Shown here: piece after piece, positions 43,705 through 52,954 of the stretch
Layout of the letters: each line of letters begins with the position of its first letter
How positions within the stretch are numbered: the stretch's first letter is position 1
Assembly: GCA_902593675.1 (NCBI GenBank)
Contig: CACJJI010000002.1
Location: 124,001-188,000 of the forward strand
Reading direction: 5' to 3'
DNA from: an uncultured SAR86 cluster bacterium
GTDB lineage: Bacteria > Pseudomonadota > Gammaproteobacteria > Magnimaribacterales > D2472
DNA length: 64,000 nt
The notes under the pieces: generated by a model
Seen by the model: the letters and a program-made list of their open reading frames with translations, nothing else
What the model was told of the DNA's origin: nothing
The model's database searches: none
Program-made: the position numbers and the translations under genes

Positions 43705-44679
43705 TTATTCTGAATAAAGATTTACTATTTGATCACCGTTTTTAATATTTTTAATATTTTCAGCAAATAAGCTAAAGGCTCTGGGTATTGATAACAATGA
43801 ATGAGCTGAATCATGAGCTGAAATAAAACAGTTTGGGGTGTTCCACAGTGGTGATGAGCTCTCTAGCGGCTCAATCTTAGTGGTATCTAATGCTGCTGCT
43901 GCAATCTCTTTATCATGTAGCGCATCAGACAGATCTTGTTCATTAATTGCGGTCCCCCTACCTACATTAACTAACATAGCTGAATCATTAAGCTTCTTTA
44001 AAACATTTTGATTAATAATATCTCTTGTTTGCGAACTATCAGGAAGTGCTAGAACTAAATAATCAGTCAATGGTAGCAACTCTTCAAAAGAATCCAGCCC
44101 TAGAACCTCATCTGCATACTCGTCATCAACTGGATTTCGTCTTATTCCAGTAACCTTCATACCAAAAGCTTTGCCAAGTTTAGCCACCTCTTTGCCTATA
44201 CCTCCATAACCAAGAATAACTAAAGTTTTATTGGTCAACTCTCCATCTCCACCTAATGGAGTCCAACTTTTAGATTGTTGTAATTCAATATGCTGATCTA
44301 TTCTCTTATTCCACCTTAAGATTTGTGAAAAAACGTAATGAGCAATTGGAATTGCATAAATACTGCTTGCATTGGCAATTAATATATCTTTTTCCTTCAA
44401 GACCTCTTGGAGGATTGGAGCATCCATACCAGCAAATCCACTTTGAATAAACTTCATACGCTTAGATAAATCTAAGAGGGAATTAAAAATTTCTGGAAAA
44501 TCTCTAGCAGCAAACAAAAATTGGTAGGACATAAAAAAAGCATCTGACTCAGGTACCTTCTCCCACGAAGGGTTAGTTGAATCTTCTGGGTTCAAAGAAA
44601 TAATCTCCATAGAAGGATCAATAGATAAAAGCTCTGATCGGTAAAATTTATTTGTATCTTCTGAAATAACAATTCTCAT
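43705..44679 (-). CDS. D-2-hydroxyacid dehydrogenase
   Basis: A 324-residue NAD(P)-dependent oxidoreductase. The Rossmann motif is GYGGIGKEVAKLGKAFG, followed by Arg-rich VTGIRRNP (NADP preference possible). The catalytic Arg is in NVGRGTAINEQ, Glu in TKIEPLESSSPLW and His in ISAHDSAHS, in that order. It reduces 2-oxoacids or oxidises D-2-hydroxyacids. Start overlaps the ligase stop by 1 base. Role in the catabolic cluster unknown. Confidence 0.85.
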   Translation of the reverse strand: MRIVISEDTNKFYRSELLSIDPSMEIISLNPEDSTNPSWEKVPESDAFFMSYQFLFAARDFPEIFNSLLDLSKRMKFIQSGFAGMDAPILQEVLKEKDILIANASSIYAIPIAHYVFSQILRWNKRIDQHIELQQSKSWTPLGGDGELTNKTLVILGYGGIGKEVAKLGKAFGMKVTGIRRNPVDDEYADEVLGLDSFEELLPLTDYLVLALPDSSQTRDIINQNVLKKLNDSAMLVNVGRGTAINEQDLSDALHDKEIAAAALDTTKIEPLESSSPLWNTPNCFISAHDSAHSLLSIPRAFSLFAENIKNIKNGDQIVNLYSE

Positions 44680-46241
44680 TAGCCTTCCTTTAAAATATAT
44701 TTCATTACTTTTCCTGCTGCATTTGTAGGTAAGGATTCAACAAATACTATCTCTCTTGGAACTTTATAATTTGCCATATTTTCTTTTGACCATTGCACCA
44801 AAGTATCTTCTTGGAGTTCATGATTTGGTTTTAATACAACAAATGCTTTGGCAACCTCTCCCATTCTTTCATCTGCAATACCAATAACTGCAGCTTGGGA
44901 GATTGAAGGATGGTCACAGAGAATATTTTCAATTTCAGCTGGATAAGCATTAAATCCCCCAACAATAAACATATCTTTGCTTCTATCAGTAATTTTAATA
45001 TAGCCATTTTGATCAAGTATTCCTATATCACCGGTATGCAACCAGCCCTCTGTGTCGATAGTCTCTTTGGTCGCCTCAGGATTATTAAAATAACCTTTAG
45101 TTACATTATAGCCTCTTACTAAAATCTCTCCTGGCTCTCCGACCGGAACTTCTTGATTGTCTTGATTGACACACTTCACCTCTACATCAGCAATAGCACA
45201 GCCTGAGGTGGATGCTATTGTTTCATAGTTATCATCAGGAGTACACATGGTAACCACTCCTGTGCTTTCTGTTAATCCATATGCTGTAATGACAGTCTCA
45301 AAACCCAATCTTTCTTTCATATCCTTAATAAGCTGAACTGGTATAGAGGCAGCTCCAGTAACCCCTAATCTTAAAGAAGAAATATCTAACTTATCTATTA
45401 ATTGACTGGTAAGAATTGACTGGTAAAGAGTTGGAGGTCCTGGCAGCATAGAAATTTGATGCTCATTGATTATCTTAATAATTTTATCTGCATCAAATAC
45501 AGGACACGGGTAAGCCGTTGCCCCCCTCATCACTGAGGCTAGCCAACCAGCCTTATATCCAAAAGTATGGAAAAACGGATTTACAATTAAATATTGGTCA
45601 TTTTCATTTAAGCCAATATAAGTAGACCAATACTCGAACACTTTAATATTTTGTAAATGTGAAGAAATAACTCCTTTAGGTTTTCCAGTTGTACCTGAGG
45701 TGAAAATAATATCAGCCATATCGGTTTCACTTACTTCAGGCAATTCAACATCCAAAGCTTGCTCTTTGATAGTTTCAAAAGATTGAATTAAGTCTTTTGG
45801 CTCACTTTCATCAAGCGTAATTTTATGTAGCAAATGAGGTAGATCTTCATTTTCTAGTAACTCAAAGTAATCTGTCCCAAGAAAAGTTTTTACGCTAAAT
45901 AAAAATTTAGCCCCTGAATTATTTAAAATATAGGCAGCCTCCTTGCCTTTCATTCGGGTGTTAATAGGAACTAAAACTCCGCCAGCTTTATGAATAGCAA
46001 TTGCTGCAAGCACCCATTCATTCATATTTGGAGCCCAAATAGCAGCTCGATCGCCTGGTAAAATACCAAGATGTATTAAATGAGTAGCAATGTTAGTTGA
46101 TAGGTTATCTAGATCTGCAAAAGATAACACTTCATTGTCAGAAATTAATGCAGGCTTTGAGGAAAAATTTTCAGCTTGCAGCTTGATTAGCTTGGGTATT
46201 GTTAATGTATTTACTGGTTTCAATCTAATATCCTGGCCCAT
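44679..46241 (-). CDS. Acyl-CoA synthetase (FadD3-like candidate)
   Basis: A 520-residue AMP-forming ligase. The P-loop TSGTTGKPKG, the adenylate-contacting AYGLTESTG, the hinge TGDIG and the C-terminal catalytic Lys in NAAGKVMK are intact. It activates a carboxylic acid to acyl-AMP and then acyl-CoA. The surrounding steroid-type genes make HIP-CoA synthetase (FadD3) the most attractive role, but fatty or aromatic acids fit the sequence equally. Its start overlaps the first Lrp gene by 22 bases. Confidence 0.8.
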   Translation of the reverse strand: MGQDIRLKPVNTLTIPKLIKLQAENFSSKPALISDNEVLSFADLDNLSTNIATHLIHLGILPGDRAAIWAPNMNEWVLAAIAIHKAGGVLVPINTRMKGKEAAYILNNSGAKFLFSVKTFLGTDYFELLENEDLPHLLHKITLDESEPKDLIQSFETIKEQALDVELPEVSETDMADIIFTSGTTGKPKGVISSHLQNIKVFEYWSTYIGLNENDQYLIVNPFFHTFGYKAGWLASVMRGATAYPCPVFDADKIIKIINEHQISMLPGPPTLYQSILTSQLIDKLDISSLRLGVTGAASIPVQLIKDMKERLGFETVITAYGLTESTGVVTMCTPDDNYETIASTSGCAIADVEVKCVNQDNQEVPVGEPGEILVRGYNVTKGYFNNPEATKETIDTEGWLHTGDIGILDQNGYIKITDRSKDMFIVGGFNAYPAEIENILCDHPSISQAAVIGIADERMGEVAKAFVVLKPNHELQEDTLVQWSKENMANYKVPREIVFVESLPTNAAGKVMKYILKEG

Positions 46242-46675
46242 CTATAATCATATTTGTAATACTTTAACCCGATAGATGATTCTGAAAACCTTACACCAGG
46301 CAAAGAAGAAATTTCTTCATATAAAACTTTAGAAAGTTTAGTCACATCTTCAGCCAGAATGAACACCATAAGATCATGACGCCCCATGAGACTTGAAACA
46401 AACCTAACTTCCTTCATTTTTGAAAGAGCTTTTGCAACAGAGTCTTTAGCTCTAGTTTCAACATCCAACCCTACAAAAGCTAAAGAAGGATTCTCCATGC
46501 GATTGATATTATTTATAACAGAGATTTTAATAACTTTATTCTGAATAAGTTTTTGGATTCTATTGCGAACAGTGCCTTCAGTTACTCCAATCACCTTGGC
46601 CATTTGATTGTTTGACATTCTTGCATCAGCCCCAAGCAATTGAATAATTTTTTTATCTGTTTGATCAAGCTTCAT
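46220..46675 (-). CDS. Lrp/AsnC-family regulator 1
   Basis: A 151-residue protein starting at ATG 46675 (MKLDQTDKKIIQLLG). The helix-turn-helix lies at about 8-50 (MSNNQMAKVIGVTEGTVRNRI), followed by the RAM/AsnC dimerisation domain. The usual family size is 150-165. The start overlaps the end of the next Lrp gene by 11 bases, and its stop lies inside the ligase gene. Probably senses an amino acid or a pathway acyl compound and controls this cluster. Confidence 0.85.
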   Translation of the reverse strand: MKLDQTDKKIIQLLGADARMSNNQMAKVIGVTEGTVRNRIQKLIQNKVIKISVINNINRMENPSLAFVGLDVETRAKDSVAKALSKMKEVRFVSSLMGRHDLMVFILAEDVTKLSKVLYEEISSLPGVRFSESSIGLKYYKYDYRWARILD

Positions 46676-47132
46676 TTGCAAAAGGCGTCCAGTCCGTTTC
46701 AAATTTATACACGCTTGACGCAATTGCAGGTGCAATACTCTTAATTCCAACAATGGATGGCAAGGTTTCATCTAAAAATATTTTTGTTTCATGTAAAGTT
46801 TGGGTGGCACATAGAATTTCTATATCCTGAATTCCGCTAACAACATTTACACTGAACACTTCTTTTTGCCGAGAAAGAATCTCTGCAACCTCCTCTAATT
46901 TATCACCTTGAACTCTTATACCGATTGGAAGCAAATAGTCATAGCCACATTTTTCAAAATCTGCTATTGCAATGATTTTGCAAAAACCTCCATCAATAAT
47001 TTTTGTCAGACGTTTGCTAACAGTTACCTCATTTACAGATAGCTTTTCTGCAATGAATTTTGCTGGCGCACGACCATCTTCTTCAAGAATTTGAAGAATC
47101 TTGTGATCAAGATCATCGAGTGAAAGCTTCAC
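46665..47132 (-). CDS. Lrp/AsnC-family regulator 2
   Basis: A 155-residue protein. The helix-turn-helix region is LDHKILQILEEDGRAPAKFIAEKL followed by VNEVTVSKRL, and the RAM domain follows. It is clearly different in sequence from the neighbouring regulator, so this is not a recent duplication. Tandem Lrp proteins can form mixed oligomers. It sits 24 bases after the Rieske oxygenase catalytic gene. Confidence 0.82.
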   Translation of the reverse strand: MKLSLDDLDHKILQILEEDGRAPAKFIAEKLSVNEVTVSKRLTKIIDGGFCKIIAIADFEKCGYDYLLPIGIRVQGDKLEEVAEILSRQKEVFSVNVVSGIQDIEILCATQTLHETKIFLDETLPSIVGIKSIAPAIASSVYKFETDWTPFANEA

Positions 47133-47156: not shown

Positions 47157-48002
47157 TTAAAATTCTCTTTTTTCTAAATCTAGACCTGGAGGAATATCAG
47201 CTCTATTAACTAAAAATTGTCCGTACCATTTTCTTAGTTTATGCAATGGCCCATCGCCATCACAAACCACGGGATCGGGAATATAAATTTTATTCTCCCA
47301 AATAGCTACATCTTGTCCAAAAGCAAAATTATTCGCATCAACATAGCCTTGAATAAAGGCAGCCTCATCTTCAGCAGACATACCAGGAACTTTTTTAACC
47401 ATGACTCCAAAATTAATAACAAAAGAAGTGAGGGTTAAAGGTATATGACTGACCAAAAGTCTGCTTTCAACTTTCGCTCCGTCATGAACAGCACTCATAT
47501 ATGTTGTCATGTAGGCTGGGCCTTCGTATCTGGCTTGGGAAAATAAATCCCTTCCTAGTATCGGGCTGTCAGCTGTCATTTCTTGTATATAGGTATGGTC
47601 TTTAGCTTCATTCCAAAATCCTTCAAATGGAGCTTGGTGAACTGGACCAAAATGACCTTTATCAGCCATATTATCGATCAACTCTCTACAATTATTCTTT
47701 ACCAAAAAACTCGCCATACCATAATCAGACCAATCATCTGAATAGCACTCTTCTATTTTATCAGGAGTAAAATCAGGAGCTTGTTTCTCGATGTCATGCC
47801 ATACCATAACCATTTGGTTTATTTCCAAAACTGGCCAAGAAGTATCACCGCCAACATTCACCTCAACAGAACTGTCCTCATTTCGAGAAATTAATATTTT
47901 ATTATTAAATCCAAAAATTGTTTTAGTTTCTCCAATCGGAAAATCTCTTTGATGACCCAAAACAAACCACCCTCTTGGAAACCTATCTGGTAAATCACTC
48001 AT
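47157..48002 (-). CDS. Rieske-type oxygenase catalytic subunit lacking its Rieske core (KshA-like)
   Basis: A 281-residue protein related to 3-ketosteroid 9-alpha-hydroxylase oxygenase (KshA). The mononuclear iron site is intact: NCRELIDN, H117 and H122, then D231 in GQDVAIWENK. The N-terminus keeps the outer strands of a Rieske domain (RGWFVLGHQ...ETKTIFGFNNKILISRNEDSS; then SWPVLEINQMVMVWHD) but the central segment of about 60 residues that carries C-x-H and C-x2-H is gone. It is 9 bases downstream of a stand-alone Rieske protein gene, which probably supplies electrons. Confidence 0.8.
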   Translation of the reverse strand: MSDLPDRFPRGWFVLGHQRDFPIGETKTIFGFNNKILISRNEDSSVEVNVGGDTSWPVLEINQMVMVWHDIEKQAPDFTPDKIEECYSDDWSDYGMASFLVKNNCRELIDNMADKGHFGPVHQAPFEGFWNEAKDHTYIQEMTADSPILGRDLFSQARYEGPAYMTTYMSAVHDGAKVESRLLVSHIPLTLTSFVINFGVMVKKVPGMSAEDEAAFIQGYVDANNFAFGQDVAIWENKIYIPDPVVCDGDGPLHKLRKWYGQFLVNRADIPPGLDLEKREF

Positions 48003-48011
48003 GACTATCTC

Positions 48012-48455
48012 CTATCTTAAATTAAACTTTTGTCCATCTGGATCTGCTGGTTTTTGATCTCTATCAAACCAAACATATACCATCCCATTATCCTCACTTA
48101 CTTCCCATGATCGGGTTGTGGCCTTGGCAGGAATTTTTTTTGCGTATGGAATATCATCACATTGGCCATCTCCTCCCCAACGCCAGGCATGAAAAGGGCA
48201 TCGAATGCTATTTTCATCAACTTCCCCACAAGCTAATGAAGCTCCCATGTGCTTACAATACAGATCAAGGCCTCTTAAAACAGCATCCTCTCCTCTCCAA
48301 ACTACAATCTGAGTTGGGAAATCATCAACCTGGATTGCTGTCTTAGAAGGAATGTCCTGACTCTTTGCAATTTTGTACCAACCAGACTCCAAATTGCTAG
48401 CAGCAGGATCTTTCTGTTCTGGAAGCTCAGGTGCTATTAACTCTTGATCAGTCAA
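48012..48455 (-). CDS. Stand-alone Rieske [2Fe-2S] protein, partner of the KshA-like catalytic subunit
   Basis: A 147-residue protein that is a single Rieske domain. Cluster ligands are C67-x-H69 and C86-x2-H89 (LYCKHMGAS ... RCPFHAWRW). It begins and ends with the strands usual for oxygenase alpha subunits (SGWYKIAKS; SWEVSEDNGMVYVWF) and stops before any catalytic domain. It is the first gene of a two-gene unit, with an AGGAGA ribosome site for the next gene. Confidence 0.85.
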   Translation of the reverse strand: MTDQELIAPELPEQKDPAASNLESGWYKIAKSQDIPSKTAIQVDDFPTQIVVWRGEDAVLRGLDLYCKHMGASLACGEVDENSIRCPFHAWRWGGDGQCDDIPYAKKIPAKATTRSWEVSEDNGMVYVWFDRDQKPADPDGQKFNLR

Positions 48456-48547: not shown

Positions 48548-49420
48548 TTATCTAAATTTAGCAACCACTTCTTCCGCTAAGATTAATTGCTCAATATTTT
48601 TTGAGGTAGGAACTAAAATTACGTCTGTTGCCCCTGCGGCCTTAATTAACAAAAGAAAATCATTTAAATCATCTTGACTGCCTGAAAAACCTGCTATTTT
48701 TGCTAAATCCTTAGCAAGATCATCCCCCATCCAACTTAAATATCTTTCAAGATGAGTTTGAATATCTGATCGAGCACCTTCACCCAAACCAAACCAAAAG
48801 CTTGTAACCAATCTTGGAGTTTTGCCTTTATTCTTAAAGGCGCCAATAACTCGATTAAATGAATCTTTAATCTCTTCGATATCTGCATTGAATGAAAACC
48901 CAGCTAAACCTTGGGCAAAATCAGAAGACATTTCCATGGCTTTAGGACCAACTGCACCTGCTAATATTTCTGGTCCATTCTTAGAAAAAGTTGTTGGGCC
49001 AAGATCAGGGTGATACTCCTTTGACCAAACAGATTGCATCGTTTTCACATGATTTGAAAGTATGCCCCATCTTCTATCAGACCATTTTGAGTCTATAGCA
49101 TTGTAGTCTTCTTCCCTACCACCAACTCCAACGCCAAGGGTAAACCGGCCTTCTGAAATCATATCAATGGTTGCAAACTGTTTAGCGCTAAGTATCGGGT
49201 TATGCATTGTTAACACAGAGATGGTTGCAATAATCTCTACACGCTTAGTCCAAGCAGCCACCGCACTTAAAGTAGAAATGAATTCTGGATTAGGAAATAA
49301 TATTCTTTCTCCTAGGGCAATATGTGACCATGGGCCAGCATCTATTCTAAGTGTCCAATCCTCTAAATTTTGCCTGGTCAGGCCAGGCTCCATGACCGGA
49401 AGGGTCATGCCAATTTTCAT
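48548..49420 (-). CDS. LLM-class flavin-dependent oxidoreductase (luciferase-like)
   Basis: A 290-residue protein of the bacterial luciferase / F420 or FMN monooxygenase fold. Typical strands are visible: [38 protein letters not shown] and the DVILVP end. The cofactor cannot be settled. In Hsa-type clusters no direct equivalent is standard. Its start overlaps the aldolase stop by 4 bases (ATGA), so it is coupled to the meta-cleavage genes. Could be an accessory monooxygenase acting on the ring skeleton. Confidence 0.8.
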
Positions 49421-50433
49421 GATTTAGATTTCTTTTTTAATAAATCTAAAGCCACATCAACGATCATATCTTCCTGACCACCCACCATCTTTCTTTTGCC
49501 TAGCTCAACTAAGATCTCTCTAGTATCAAGATTATAAGTTTCGGCAGCTGATTCAGCATGCCTTAAAAAGGACGAGTAAACTCCTGCATAACCCAATGTT
49601 AACGTTTCTCTATCTACTCTAACAGGTCTATCCTGCAAGGGTCGAACGAGTTCTTCAGCAGCATCCATTAACCTAAAAAGATCAGTACCATGGGTCCAAC
49701 CAAGTCTATCAATTGCAGCAATAAAAACTTCAAGAGGTGCATTTCCTGCTCCAGCACCCATCCCTGCAAGGCTTGCATCAACTCTATTGGCTCCATTTTC
49801 AACCGCCACAATAGAGTTAGCAACTCCTAAGGATAAATTGTGATGAGCATGCATACCTGTTTGAGTTCGAGAATCCAAGGCATCCTTGAAAGCTTTAAAT
49901 CTATCTGCCACATCCTCCATGCTTAACGCACCACCTGAGTCAACAACATAAACACATTCAGCTCCATAAGACTCCATTAATTTAGCTTGTACAGCTAAAT
50001 TTGATGGAGAGGTCATATGTGACATCATTAAAAAACCGATAGTATCCATCCCTAATTCTCTTGCAAACTCTATATGCTGCTTTGAAACATCTGCCTCTGT
50101 GCAATGTGTTGCAACTCGCACCGACCTGACACCAAGATCCCATGCCCATTTAAGATCTTCTTTTACAGCTATTCCAGGTAAAATAAGAGTGGTTAACTTT
50201 GCATGATTTAATTTCTCTCCTACAGCTCCAATCCACTCTTGATCGGTGTGAGCGCCAAAGCCATAATTAAAAGAAGATCCAGACAATCCATCTCCATGAG
50301 CCACCTCAATAGCATCAACTTTAGCCTCATCCAATGCTTTTGCAATTTCAATGACATGATCTAAGCCGTATTGGTGTCGAATAGCATGCATTCCATCTCT
50401 TAGTGTGACATCTTGTATATATAGCTTTTTCAT
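49417..50433 (-). CDS. 4-Hydroxy-2-oxovalerate aldolase (HsaF/BphI type)
   Basis: A 338-residue DmpG-type aldolase. The metal-site motif is VTLRDGMHA, with DVTLRDG near the N-terminus and [13 protein letters not shown] for metal-binding His residues. It cleaves a 4-hydroxy-2-oxoacid into pyruvate and an aldehyde that is channelled to the acetaldehyde dehydrogenase next door. Size and neighbours match HsaF/HsaG. It overlaps the dehydrogenase gene by 4 bases. Confidence 0.9.
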
Positions 50434-51353
50434 GAATTGAGTTTAATTAATTCTTGCGCTGTTCCCATTGCTGCAGAAGTCATAATATCTAAATTTCCTG
50501 CATAGGTTGGTAAGTAATGTCCAGCTCCCTCAACTTCAAGAAAAATTGATGCTTTTAGACCTTCAAACTCACCATAGCCAGGAATTGAACATGGATTATT
50601 GGAACCAAATCTTTCAAACTGAACTTCTTGCTTCAAACGATATCCTGGCACATATGATTGAACACGCCCTACCATAGCTTCAATGCTATCTTTAACCAAC
50701 TCTTGATCAACTGGATCACATAAGGTAAAAACAGTATTTCGCATCAACAAGGGAGGCTCTGCAGGATTTAACACTATGATTGCTTTAGCTCTGTCTGCTC
50801 CTCCAACTTTTTCAAGTCCAAGCTTGGTTGTTTGAGTGAATTCATCAATGTTAGCTCTTGTTCCTGGGCCAGCAGACCTGGAAGAAACAGATGCAACTAT
50901 TTCAGCATACTTAACACTAGAGACTTGATTTACTGCTGCAACCATTGGGATAGTAGCTTGGCCGCCGCAAGTCACCATATTTACATTCTTTTCTTTTAAA
51001 TGTTCGGTTAAATTAACAACCGGTACACAATACGGACCAATTGCTGCTGGTGTTAGATCTATCATCTGTTTCCCATCATTGATAATTAAATCATGATGAT
51101 TCTTATGGGCGCCAGCAGATGTTGCATCAAAAAATATTTCCGTATCTTGGTATTCATCCATTTCCATAAACCCTAATAAACCTGATGTTGAAATTGGGAT
51201 ATTCTGAGATTTCGCCATTGCTAAACCCTCAGAATCAGGATCAATTCCAATAACTCCATTTAAGGACAATGATTGAGAGGTTTTAATGATTTTTAGCATC
51301 AAATCTGTTCCGATGTTTCCTGATCCGATGATTGCGCATTTTACTTTATTCAT
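50430..51353 (-). CDS. Acylating acetaldehyde/propanal dehydrogenase (HsaG/BphJ type)
   Basis: A 307-residue NAD-dependent enzyme. The Rossmann motif [13 protein letters not shown] is at the N-terminus and the catalytic Cys is in [10 protein letters not shown]. It oxidises the aldolase aldehyde to acetyl- or propionyl-CoA. In the known complexes it channels the aldehyde from the aldolase. In steroid A/B-ring catabolism the product is propionyl-CoA. Confidence 0.92.
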
Positions 51354-51355
51354 AA

Positions 51356-52141
51356 TTAGATAAAATTAATTTCGCAAGTTCCAACCCCCTTAAGTTCCAA
51401 TGAAAAACTATCACCAGCTACAGCTGGCTCAAGAGGAACTAAAGACCCAGAAAGAATAAACTCACCTTTTAGCAATGGAATATCATATTCACCTAAGGTG
51501 TTAGCAAGCCATGCAACTGCTTCCGCTGGATGGCCTTGAACTGCAGAGCCAAGACCTGATGATAAAAATTCTCCATTCTTATGAACAATAACTTCTAACT
51601 CATCCATTTGAAATTTCTCAGGAGAGGATGAGCCCTCTCCCAACACAAAAATTCCACAAGAGGCATTATCAGCAATAGTATCTTGAATTTTAATTTTCCA
51701 ATCATCAATCCTAGAATCAACAATTTCAAAACATGGAACAATTTTTTCAGTTGAAGAAATGACATCTTCTTTGGTTATTCCGGGACCTTGAATATCTTCT
51801 TTTAGAATAAAAGCAATTTCAGCTTCCGCCCTTGGCTGAATTAAAGAGCTTTCTATTGAAAAATTTGACTTATTTTTAACATGCATATCATCTGTTAAGA
51901 AACCAAAATCTGGTTGATTAACACCAAGCATTTCTTGAACAACTGGGCTTGTAACACCAATTTTTTTACCAATAACTTTTTCTCCTTGGTCCTCTCTCAA
52001 AGAAAGAAATTTCCGAGAGATTTGATAGGCATCATTGATATCTATTTCTTGATATTTTTCAGAGAGCGGCTGAATTGTTTCTTGATTTTTTAATGCCAAA
52101 AAGAGTTCAGATGCTATCTCATTAATAGTATTTAAATTCAT
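51356..52141 (-). CDS. 2-Oxopent-4-enoate / 2-hydroxyhexa-2,4-dienoate hydratase (HsaE type)
   Basis: A 261-residue fumarylacetoacetase-fold hydratase with the [17 protein letters not shown] start pattern, [13 protein letters not shown] metal-site segment and [12 protein letters not shown]. It hydrates a 2-hydroxydienoate to the 4-hydroxy-2-oxoacid that the aldolase cleaves. Two bases separate it from the dehydrogenase gene. Confidence 0.9.
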
Positions 52142-52144
52142 TGA

Positions 52145-52954
52145 TTAAGATGATAAAAATTTAATGCAAGACTCGTTAAAGATTTGCTCTTTTTCGATCA
52201 TAACCCAATGTCCACACTGACTGAAAAGCATAATTTGAGCATTTGGACAATTTTGACCGATTTTTATTGAGCCTGACAAAGGGATGAATTGATCATTAAT
52301 ACCCCAAAAAGCCAGGACAGGCTGGTGAATTGATGAAAGTTTAGACTCCATATTTGGAATGTCCATTGTGGCCATTACTTGAGTATTCATAAGAGGTAGA
52401 ATTTCCATTCTATCTTCAATCATTTCCTTACTAATAATTGATTTATCAAATGGGAAAAGTTCAAGCAACCCTTCTATTTTTTCTTGATCCATGCTGCCGC
52501 CAAGAAAATCTGATAATAACTTTTTAATGCCAGGCATTTCATCGTATACCTTTCGATCTTCAACCCCGCCTGGCGCCATTAAGATTAATTTTTGTATCCT
52601 GTCAGGCTCATTTAAAGCAAGACCAATTGATAAGGCTCCCCCCAGACTATTACCAATCAATGAAAATGAATCAATCTTCAACTCATCAAGAAGCTCAAGT
52701 ATTTTGCCATTAAAATAGTCTAGCGAATAAATTTCATTTTCTGGTTTGCTAGAAAAGCCATAGCCAGGAAGATCGGGCAAAATGACTCGAAACCCTGCTT
52801 CTCTTAAGGCCTTAAAATTATTTTTAAAATTAGTGTGGCCAGAAGCTCCCGTTCCACTTCCATGGAGCAAAACCACAACATCTCCATCTCCTTCATCGTA
52901 ATAATGAAATGTAAAATTATCGCTGACTTCGAGAAATGAACCTTTAGGAATCAT
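52145..52954 (-). CDS. Meta-cleavage-product C-C hydrolase (HsaD/BphD type)
   Basis: A 269-residue alpha/beta hydrolase. The nucleophile S103 lies in GNSLGG, acid D221 in WGINDQFIP and H249 in CGHWVMIE. The oxyanion region is HGSGTGASG. These are the hallmarks of MCP hydrolases such as BphD and HsaD, which split the C-C bond of an extradiol cleavage product. The extradiol dioxygenase is not in this window. Gene sits 3 bases from the hydratase. Confidence 0.88.
   Translation of the reverse strand: MIPKGSFLEVSDNFTFHYYDEGDGDVVVLLHGSGTGASGHTNFKNNFKALREAGFRVILPDLPGYGFSSKPENEIYSLDYFNGKILELLDELKIDSFSLIGNSLGGALSIGLALNEPDRIQKLILMAPGGVEDRKVYDEMPGIKKLLSDFLGGSMDQEKIEGLLELFPFDKSIISKEMIEDRMEILPLMNTQVMATMDIPNMESKLSSIHQPVLAFWGINDQFIPLSGSIKIGQNCPNAQIMLFSQCGHWVMIEKEQIFNESCIKFLSS

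Follow-up and report, generated by a model that had tools for sequence, protein, structure and literature searches.

A probable KshA-type Rieske oxygenase encoded by two adjacent genes in SAR86 bacteria, a candidate two-chain 3-ketosteroid 9-alpha-hydroxylase

The 3-ketosteroid 9-alpha-hydroxylase (KSH) is described as a key enzyme of bacterial steroid breakdown, which initiates the opening of the ring structure; its KshA protein carries the Rieske and the catalytic domains on one chain and is accompanied by the reductase KshB (PMC4064121). In Rieske oxygenases the iron of a subunit receives its electrons from the cluster of the adjacent subunit, the distance from cluster to iron being ~12 Å between subunits as against ~45 Å within a chain, with a conserved Asp between the two centers (PMC4064121, PMC12445004). 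A catalytic chain without a Rieske core, which receives the cluster from another chain, has been described for NdmC/NdmD (PMC4408171, PMC10380055), and the chlorophyllide a oxygenase of Micromonas pusilla (MpCAO) consists of two chains and was active in vitro (PMC9615114). SAR86 bacteria have previously been credited with steroid-ring breakdown and with kshA (PMC4810484, PMC11582366).

The gene pair described here, designated rsk and cat, was found in a window (the whole stretch of DNA analyzed, 64,000 nucleotides) from an uncultured SAR86 bacterium, the source genome (G000) comprising 1.51 Mb at 81% completeness. The closest named relatives belong to SAR86, and cat is 99% identical to L042. 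The coordinates, the metal ligands, the separate starts and stops, the ribosome site and the 9-base gap given in the preliminary description were all recovered (Table 1).

Table 1. Features of the rsk-cat locus and its neighbors (positions in the window).
Feature	Position	Strand	Remarks
rsk	48012..48455	(-)	free-standing Rieske protein, 147 aa, TTG start, TAG stop
rsk cluster-ligand segment, C67-x-H69 to C86-x-x-H89	48189..48257	(-)	sequence
rsk-cat spacer	48003..48011	(-)	9 bases, includes part of the AGGAG ribosome-site sequence
cat	47157..48002	(-)	KshA-type catalytic chain without Rieske core, 281 aa, ATG start
Rieske-domain remnant in cat, residues 5-69	47796..47990	(-)	flanking strands, no cluster ligands
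KshA_C catalytic domain of cat, residues 67-263	47214..47804	(-)	with D114, H117, H122, D231
Lrp/AsnC-type regulator genes	46220-47132	(-)	two overlapping genes
FadD3-family acyl-CoA ligase, downstream neighbor	44679..46241	(-)	680.3 bits, cut-off 657
Upstream block	48548..52954	(-)	five genes, luciferase-like oxidoreductase to HsaD/BphD-like hydrolase
Luciferase-like oxidoreductase	48548-49420	(-)	

The protein encoded by rsk matched the Pfam Rieske profile with 75.3 bits over profile positions 2-85 of 88. This was its sole domain match, and no reductase is fused to it, unlike in NdmD. Its earlier portrayal as a Rieske domain and nothing else is nearly exact, the remainder being ~24 residues N-terminal to the domain and a short tail. 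The cat protein matched KshA_C with 192.9 bits (cut-off 23.3) over profile positions 1-206 of 207, and the Pfam profile search gave no Rieske match in it at E values up to 1. An AGGAG sequence stands directly 5' of the cat start codon. The TTG start of rsk occupies 48453-48455 of the window. Across 26 named loci, the start codon was TTG in 16 and ATG in three, and was left unsettled by the script in the other seven; a TTG start may keep the rsk:cat ratio low.

The pair shares with KshA (M. tuberculosis 2ZYL/4QCK; R. rhodochrous 4QDC/4QDF) the catalytic fold, the iron ligands, the bridging Asp and a steroid gene context. It differs from KshA in that the Rieske domain is a separate protein and in that no KshB-like match was obtained in the genomes searched. 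Judged strictly, it is not a canonical KshA, its domains standing on two chains, though it probably works like one. As in NdmCDE, the 7-methylxanthine N7-demethylase of Pseudomonas putida CBB5, the catalytic chain has no Rieske core; in that enzyme, however, the Rieske domain is fused to the reductase NdmD and the GST-like NdmE is required, whereas SAR86 has a small free Rieske protein and the KshA family is concerned. MpCAO, like the proposed SAR86 enzyme, is one Rieske oxygenase made from two chains, but it belongs to another family and to a eukaryote. Each of its chains reportedly lacks the metal site of the other. By analogy, the SAR86 pair can be regarded as the same kind of solution as NdmC/NdmD and the Micromonas enzyme, reached in another family. 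The statement that no ketosteroid hydroxylase so arranged had been described holds for the KshA literature searched, since no split KshA appears in the text available from the open-licence papers covered (the word "split" has no occurrence in PMC4810484, nor "Rieske" in PMC11582366), but NdmC/NdmD and the Micromonas enzyme are precedents from other families.

Small free-standing Rieske proteins are also known as soluble Rieske ferredoxins, such as CarAc. The rsk protein differs from these in scoring 110 bits against KshA and 22.5 bits against CarAc, and in having a catalytic partner that carries no cluster. All ferredoxin-subunit models remained under their cut-offs with rsk, which grouped with KshA-type proteins in a tree built without ferredoxins, and the top PDB matches of cat and of rsk were both KshA oxygenases. 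The recruitment of a foreign ferredoxin as the source of rsk was considered and rejected, rsk being nearest to KshA.

The conservation of the arrangement was analyzed by searching a profile of split cat chains (A2) against the genomes of the family and of the order. Split-type cat chains were detected in 26 of 107 family genomes, distributed over three of ten genera, and a 27th family genome matched the profile with a fused copy only. The same profile found the chain in 28 of the 203 genomes of the order (SAR86), the two beyond the 26 (G521 and G528) belonging to another family. Since one genome carries the split on two contigs, these 28 genomes provided 29 loci. The preliminary description had proposed looking for conserved adjacency, and rsk was indeed found immediately upstream of cat, in its own frame, in 28 of the 29 loci; at the remaining one the contig starts within cat. 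Moreover, the two genes stayed separate in all 28 loci where both are present, and two of the 28 genomes show cat only as far as the contig end. A shorter, catalytic-only version of 217 aa in G528 was rejected as a distinct form, as it ends at a contig edge.

The metal sites are retained along with the arrangement. Residues C67, C86 and H89 of rsk were kept in 28 of 28 sequences and H69 in 27, the other being unreadable, while D114, H117 and H122 of cat were kept in 29 of 29 and D231 in 28, the other being truncated. The C-x-H...C-x-x-H motif was absent from all 29 cat chains. The split is therefore genuine and conserved. No split was detected among 369 genomes of the class at E 1e-35, nor among 398 genomes of the phylum at E 1e-20, both sets being samples from which rare splits could escape. 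Besides the genome of the window, only G267 matched in the class sample, its two frames (349 and 360 aa) being fused, and four genomes matched in the phylum sample, with fused frames of 354-421 aa.

Substitution rates were compared in 28 pairs, formed from eight of the ten prepared rows. Finite dS was obtained for 25 of 28 cat pairs, with omega values of 0.03-0.10, and for 23 of 28 rsk pairs, with omega values of 0.07-0.37. These values are indicative only, as dS was mostly saturated: where finite it mostly exceeded 1, and three cat pairs and five rsk pairs gave an infinite value. The flank of cat (residues 1-46) had a higher dN than the catalytic part in 28 of 28 pairs. Purifying selection thus appears to act on both genes.

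These data bear on two further explanations. Errors of sequencing or assembly, or gene decay, could be suspected in source genomes that are mostly single cells or metagenome bins. The recurrence of the pair in 28 genomes of the order shows, however, that the arrangement is not a local error; the same anatomy occurs in many assemblies, including CP097973 (L058), titled a complete genome, and the ligands are kept at low omega. Read-through of the TAG, yielding one fused protein, might be suggested by the window, where rsk and cat lie in one common frame with the TAG between them. Across the 26 named loci, however, the two genes share a frame in 11 but not in the other 15, and stops and gaps vary, so that neither read-through nor a shared error accounts for the split. 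We give practically no credence to error or decay, and hardly any to read-through; all three were rejected because the arrangement is conserved, the relative frame varies and omega is low.

The origin of the pair was examined by comparing the two chains with each other. A profile-profile comparison paired residues 7-84 of cat with residues 21-145 of rsk in 78 columns (E 1.1e-5, probability 81.5%), leaving rsk residues 65-110 unmatched in cat. The ~60-residue core reported as missing from cat is thus indeed absent, but its size is nearer 50, the unmatched segment comprising 46 residues. The flanking strands of the Rieske domain are consequently present twice, once per chain. The predicted fold of cat (16 rows) reached a mean pLDDT of 78.5, with six strands across residues 11-69, where block means were 85-94, and was poor at the first residues and at 244-262. 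It superposed on M. tuberculosis KshA (4QCK) over residues 3-260 (Z 24.2, rmsd 2.8 over 251 residues). As the model superposes on KshA and has strands at 11-69, cat corresponds to a basal Rieske part without the cluster-binding part, joined to the catalytic domain.

The presence of Rieske flanks on both chains points to tandem duplication followed by complementary loss, rather than to simple fission. The kshA gene would have been duplicated in tandem, the upstream copy would have retained the Rieske domain only, and the downstream copy would have dropped the cluster-binding core while retaining the flanking strands and the catalytic domain; the order of these events is inferred. The earlier proposal that the [2Fe-2S] module had moved to a separate subunit needs correcting accordingly, as the module did not simply move.

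Separate trees of cat and rsk were built from 46 rows each, 12 split pairs and 34 fused proteins, in which hits above 50% identity were treated as split copies and kept apart, identical proteins were excluded, and L102, L030 and L085 were dropped for a length below 300 aa. Both chains fell within a 23-row KshA-type clade with 100/100 support in both trees, which includes 11 fused KshA-type proteins from SAR86, Halieaceae and other Pseudomonadota. The split rows stood on one side of a branch with support of 84/59 (cat) and 96/85 (rsk), in trees that gave a long-branch warning for the outer rows and whose rows include no experimentally characterized KshA. A single origin of the split is likely from these trees, with support that is only moderate.

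The genes around the pair were also analyzed. Within the upstream block, a 4-hydroxy-2-oxovalerate aldolase and an acetaldehyde dehydrogenase scored above their cut-offs, and a 2-oxopent-4-enoate hydratase and the HsaD/BphD-like hydrolase under theirs. An HsaC/BphC-like dioxygenase lies just outside the window, and the HsaC, HsaD and KstD assignments are all under the NCBIfam cut-offs. In the second family the pair is flanked directly by genes whose products, as read from the listed proteins, correspond to the aldolase on one side and the ligase on the other. Gene content thus places the rsk-cat pair in what appears to be a steroid-ring-degradation cluster. The luciferase-like oxidoreductase precedes rsk in the window and in G048, not in the second family (L101, L103). 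The two Lrp/AsnC-type regulator genes, situated between cat and the FadD3-type ligase, are missing from the corresponding place in L101 and L103.

The preliminary description had taken a fused homologue in the closest relatives as a sign of local error. An intact fused KshA of 356 aa does exist, as a paralogue elsewhere in the genome of the window, and fused copies are rare in the order: full-length ones were found at 1e-30 in six of 203 genomes, plus one cut by a contig end, as against 28 with the split. The fused gene is followed by two FAD_binding_2 proteins, one of them nearest to 3-ketosteroid-delta-1-dehydrogenase (KstD) and under its cut-off; together these genes (L107:11946-16346; G000:C1, about 323.9-328.3 kb) are possibly a second steroid module of the same genome. 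Among 12 split-bearing genomes examined, the split chain was the best KshA_C match in ten and the only one in G051, and the other 11 also carry weaker fused KshA_C proteins.

Of the 107 family genomes, 32 had a KstD-like gene; the split was present in 23 of these and absent from nine, and three of the 26 split genomes, which are incomplete, gave no KstD-like match. The nine genomes with a KstD-like gene and no split-type cat (G005-G009, G012, G013, G017, G024) belong to the genus, and G013 has a fused KshA in place of the split. The use of KstD as a marker of the split was rejected, the association being only loose.

The reading that we favor, with somewhat better than even confidence, is that of a single Rieske oxygenase assembled from rsk and cat and acting as a two-chain 3-ketosteroid 9-alpha-hydroxylase. 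The two proteins most likely associate into a heteromer, with the iron of cat being served by rsk, a function that we infer. In the proposed mechanism, cat would assemble into the usual head-to-tail ring, and rsk would dock, one per interface, at the former site of the neighboring subunit's cluster. Electrons would then travel via D114 to the mononuclear iron of cat, which would hydroxylate a 3-ketosteroid. The joint fold of rsk and cat, modeled as a read-through chain (7 aligned rows), gave pLDDT 47.0 and pTM 0.37 and lends no support to the docking.

The proposal of a two-chain enzyme made in the preliminary description stands as the best reading, with a complete Rieske domain and a catalytic iron conserved on separate chains. 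The passage of electrons between chains, which had been deduced from the split, is by contrast what ordinary Rieske oxygenases already do at the distances mentioned above. Because transfer between subunits is already normal, splitting the chain preserves the electron path and removes only the tether; the novelty is the loss of the covalent tether, rather than transfer between chains.

It could be argued that cat and rsk are not partners, and that rsk serves another oxygenase or a fused oxygenase lends its cluster to cat. The genome has seven Rieske matches including rsk, and so other Rieske oxygenases exist in it. This explanation is nevertheless very improbable, given that the genes are adjacent in 28 of 29 loci and in two families, and that the element missing from each chain is precisely the one present in the other.

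An unlikely but serious alternative is that the two-chain oxygenase acts on another steroid intermediate, or at another position than C9 of a 3-ketosteroid. Counting against the hydroxylase assignment itself, the fused KshA beside the KstD-like gene could perform the 9-alpha step in the genome of the window; the other substrate would also agree with the full-length fused copies in the six order genomes and with an identity of just ~30% between cat and characterized KshA. It fits less well with the split chain being the best KshA_C match in most of the genomes examined, and with the position of the pair beside ring-cleavage genes in both families.

Electron supply to the proposed two-chain hydroxylase was addressed through the reductases and ferredoxins. 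Neither the FAD_binding_6 match of G000 nor any Fer2 match in seven genomes was seen to be a KshB-like reductase, most of the genomes being incomplete. The single FAD_binding_6 match of G000 is an open frame of 413 aa, and the Fer2 matches corresponded to open frames of 94-123, 238 or 411-444 aa. Three Fer2 loci were read and named accordingly: an Isc-operon ferredoxin in G000, and an IscA-ferredoxin fusion and an NqrF-like protein in G048. In G048 (L114:1093-1803), the sequence of a 236-aa frame suggests a fusion of IscA and the Isc ferredoxin, which are separate genes in G000. Each of the seven genomes encodes one Reductase_C protein, that of G000 having putidaredoxin reductase as its nearest PDB match and, under the cut-off, HcaD as its nearest NCBIfam match. 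Based on these matches, the electron chain is likely to run from NADH to the ferredoxin reductase and on to the cat iron, either through the Isc ferredoxin and rsk or through rsk directly.

The direct route leads to another alternative, compatible with the proposed 9-alpha-hydroxylase reaction, in which rsk would act as a mobile Rieske shuttle that takes its electrons directly from a stand-alone ferredoxin--NAD(+) reductase and docks only briefly on a ring of cluster-less cat. It would suit the absence of KshB-like proteins from the matches obtained in the genomes searched and the one Reductase_C protein per genome, with its resemblance to HcaD in G000. We consider it rather doubtful: putidaredoxin reductase, the nearest PDB relative of the G000 protein, serves a P450 system, the Isc ferredoxin could act between reductase and rsk, and rsk is far closer to KshA than to Rieske ferredoxins. 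If true, it would mean an oxygenase without a resident cluster, in which ferredoxin and Rieske domain are one protein and rsk passes the electron straight to the mononuclear iron, merging two roles that are elsewhere separate.

SAR86 is described as one of the most abundant bacterial groups in the surface ocean (PMC11582366). An annotation that calls "kshA" by its catalytic domain would overlook a second gene that is probably required. For steroid biocatalysis, the split provides a redox and a catalytic component that can be separated, and, being natural, it makes testable whether the cluster must be tethered to the catalytic chain in Rieske oxygenases.
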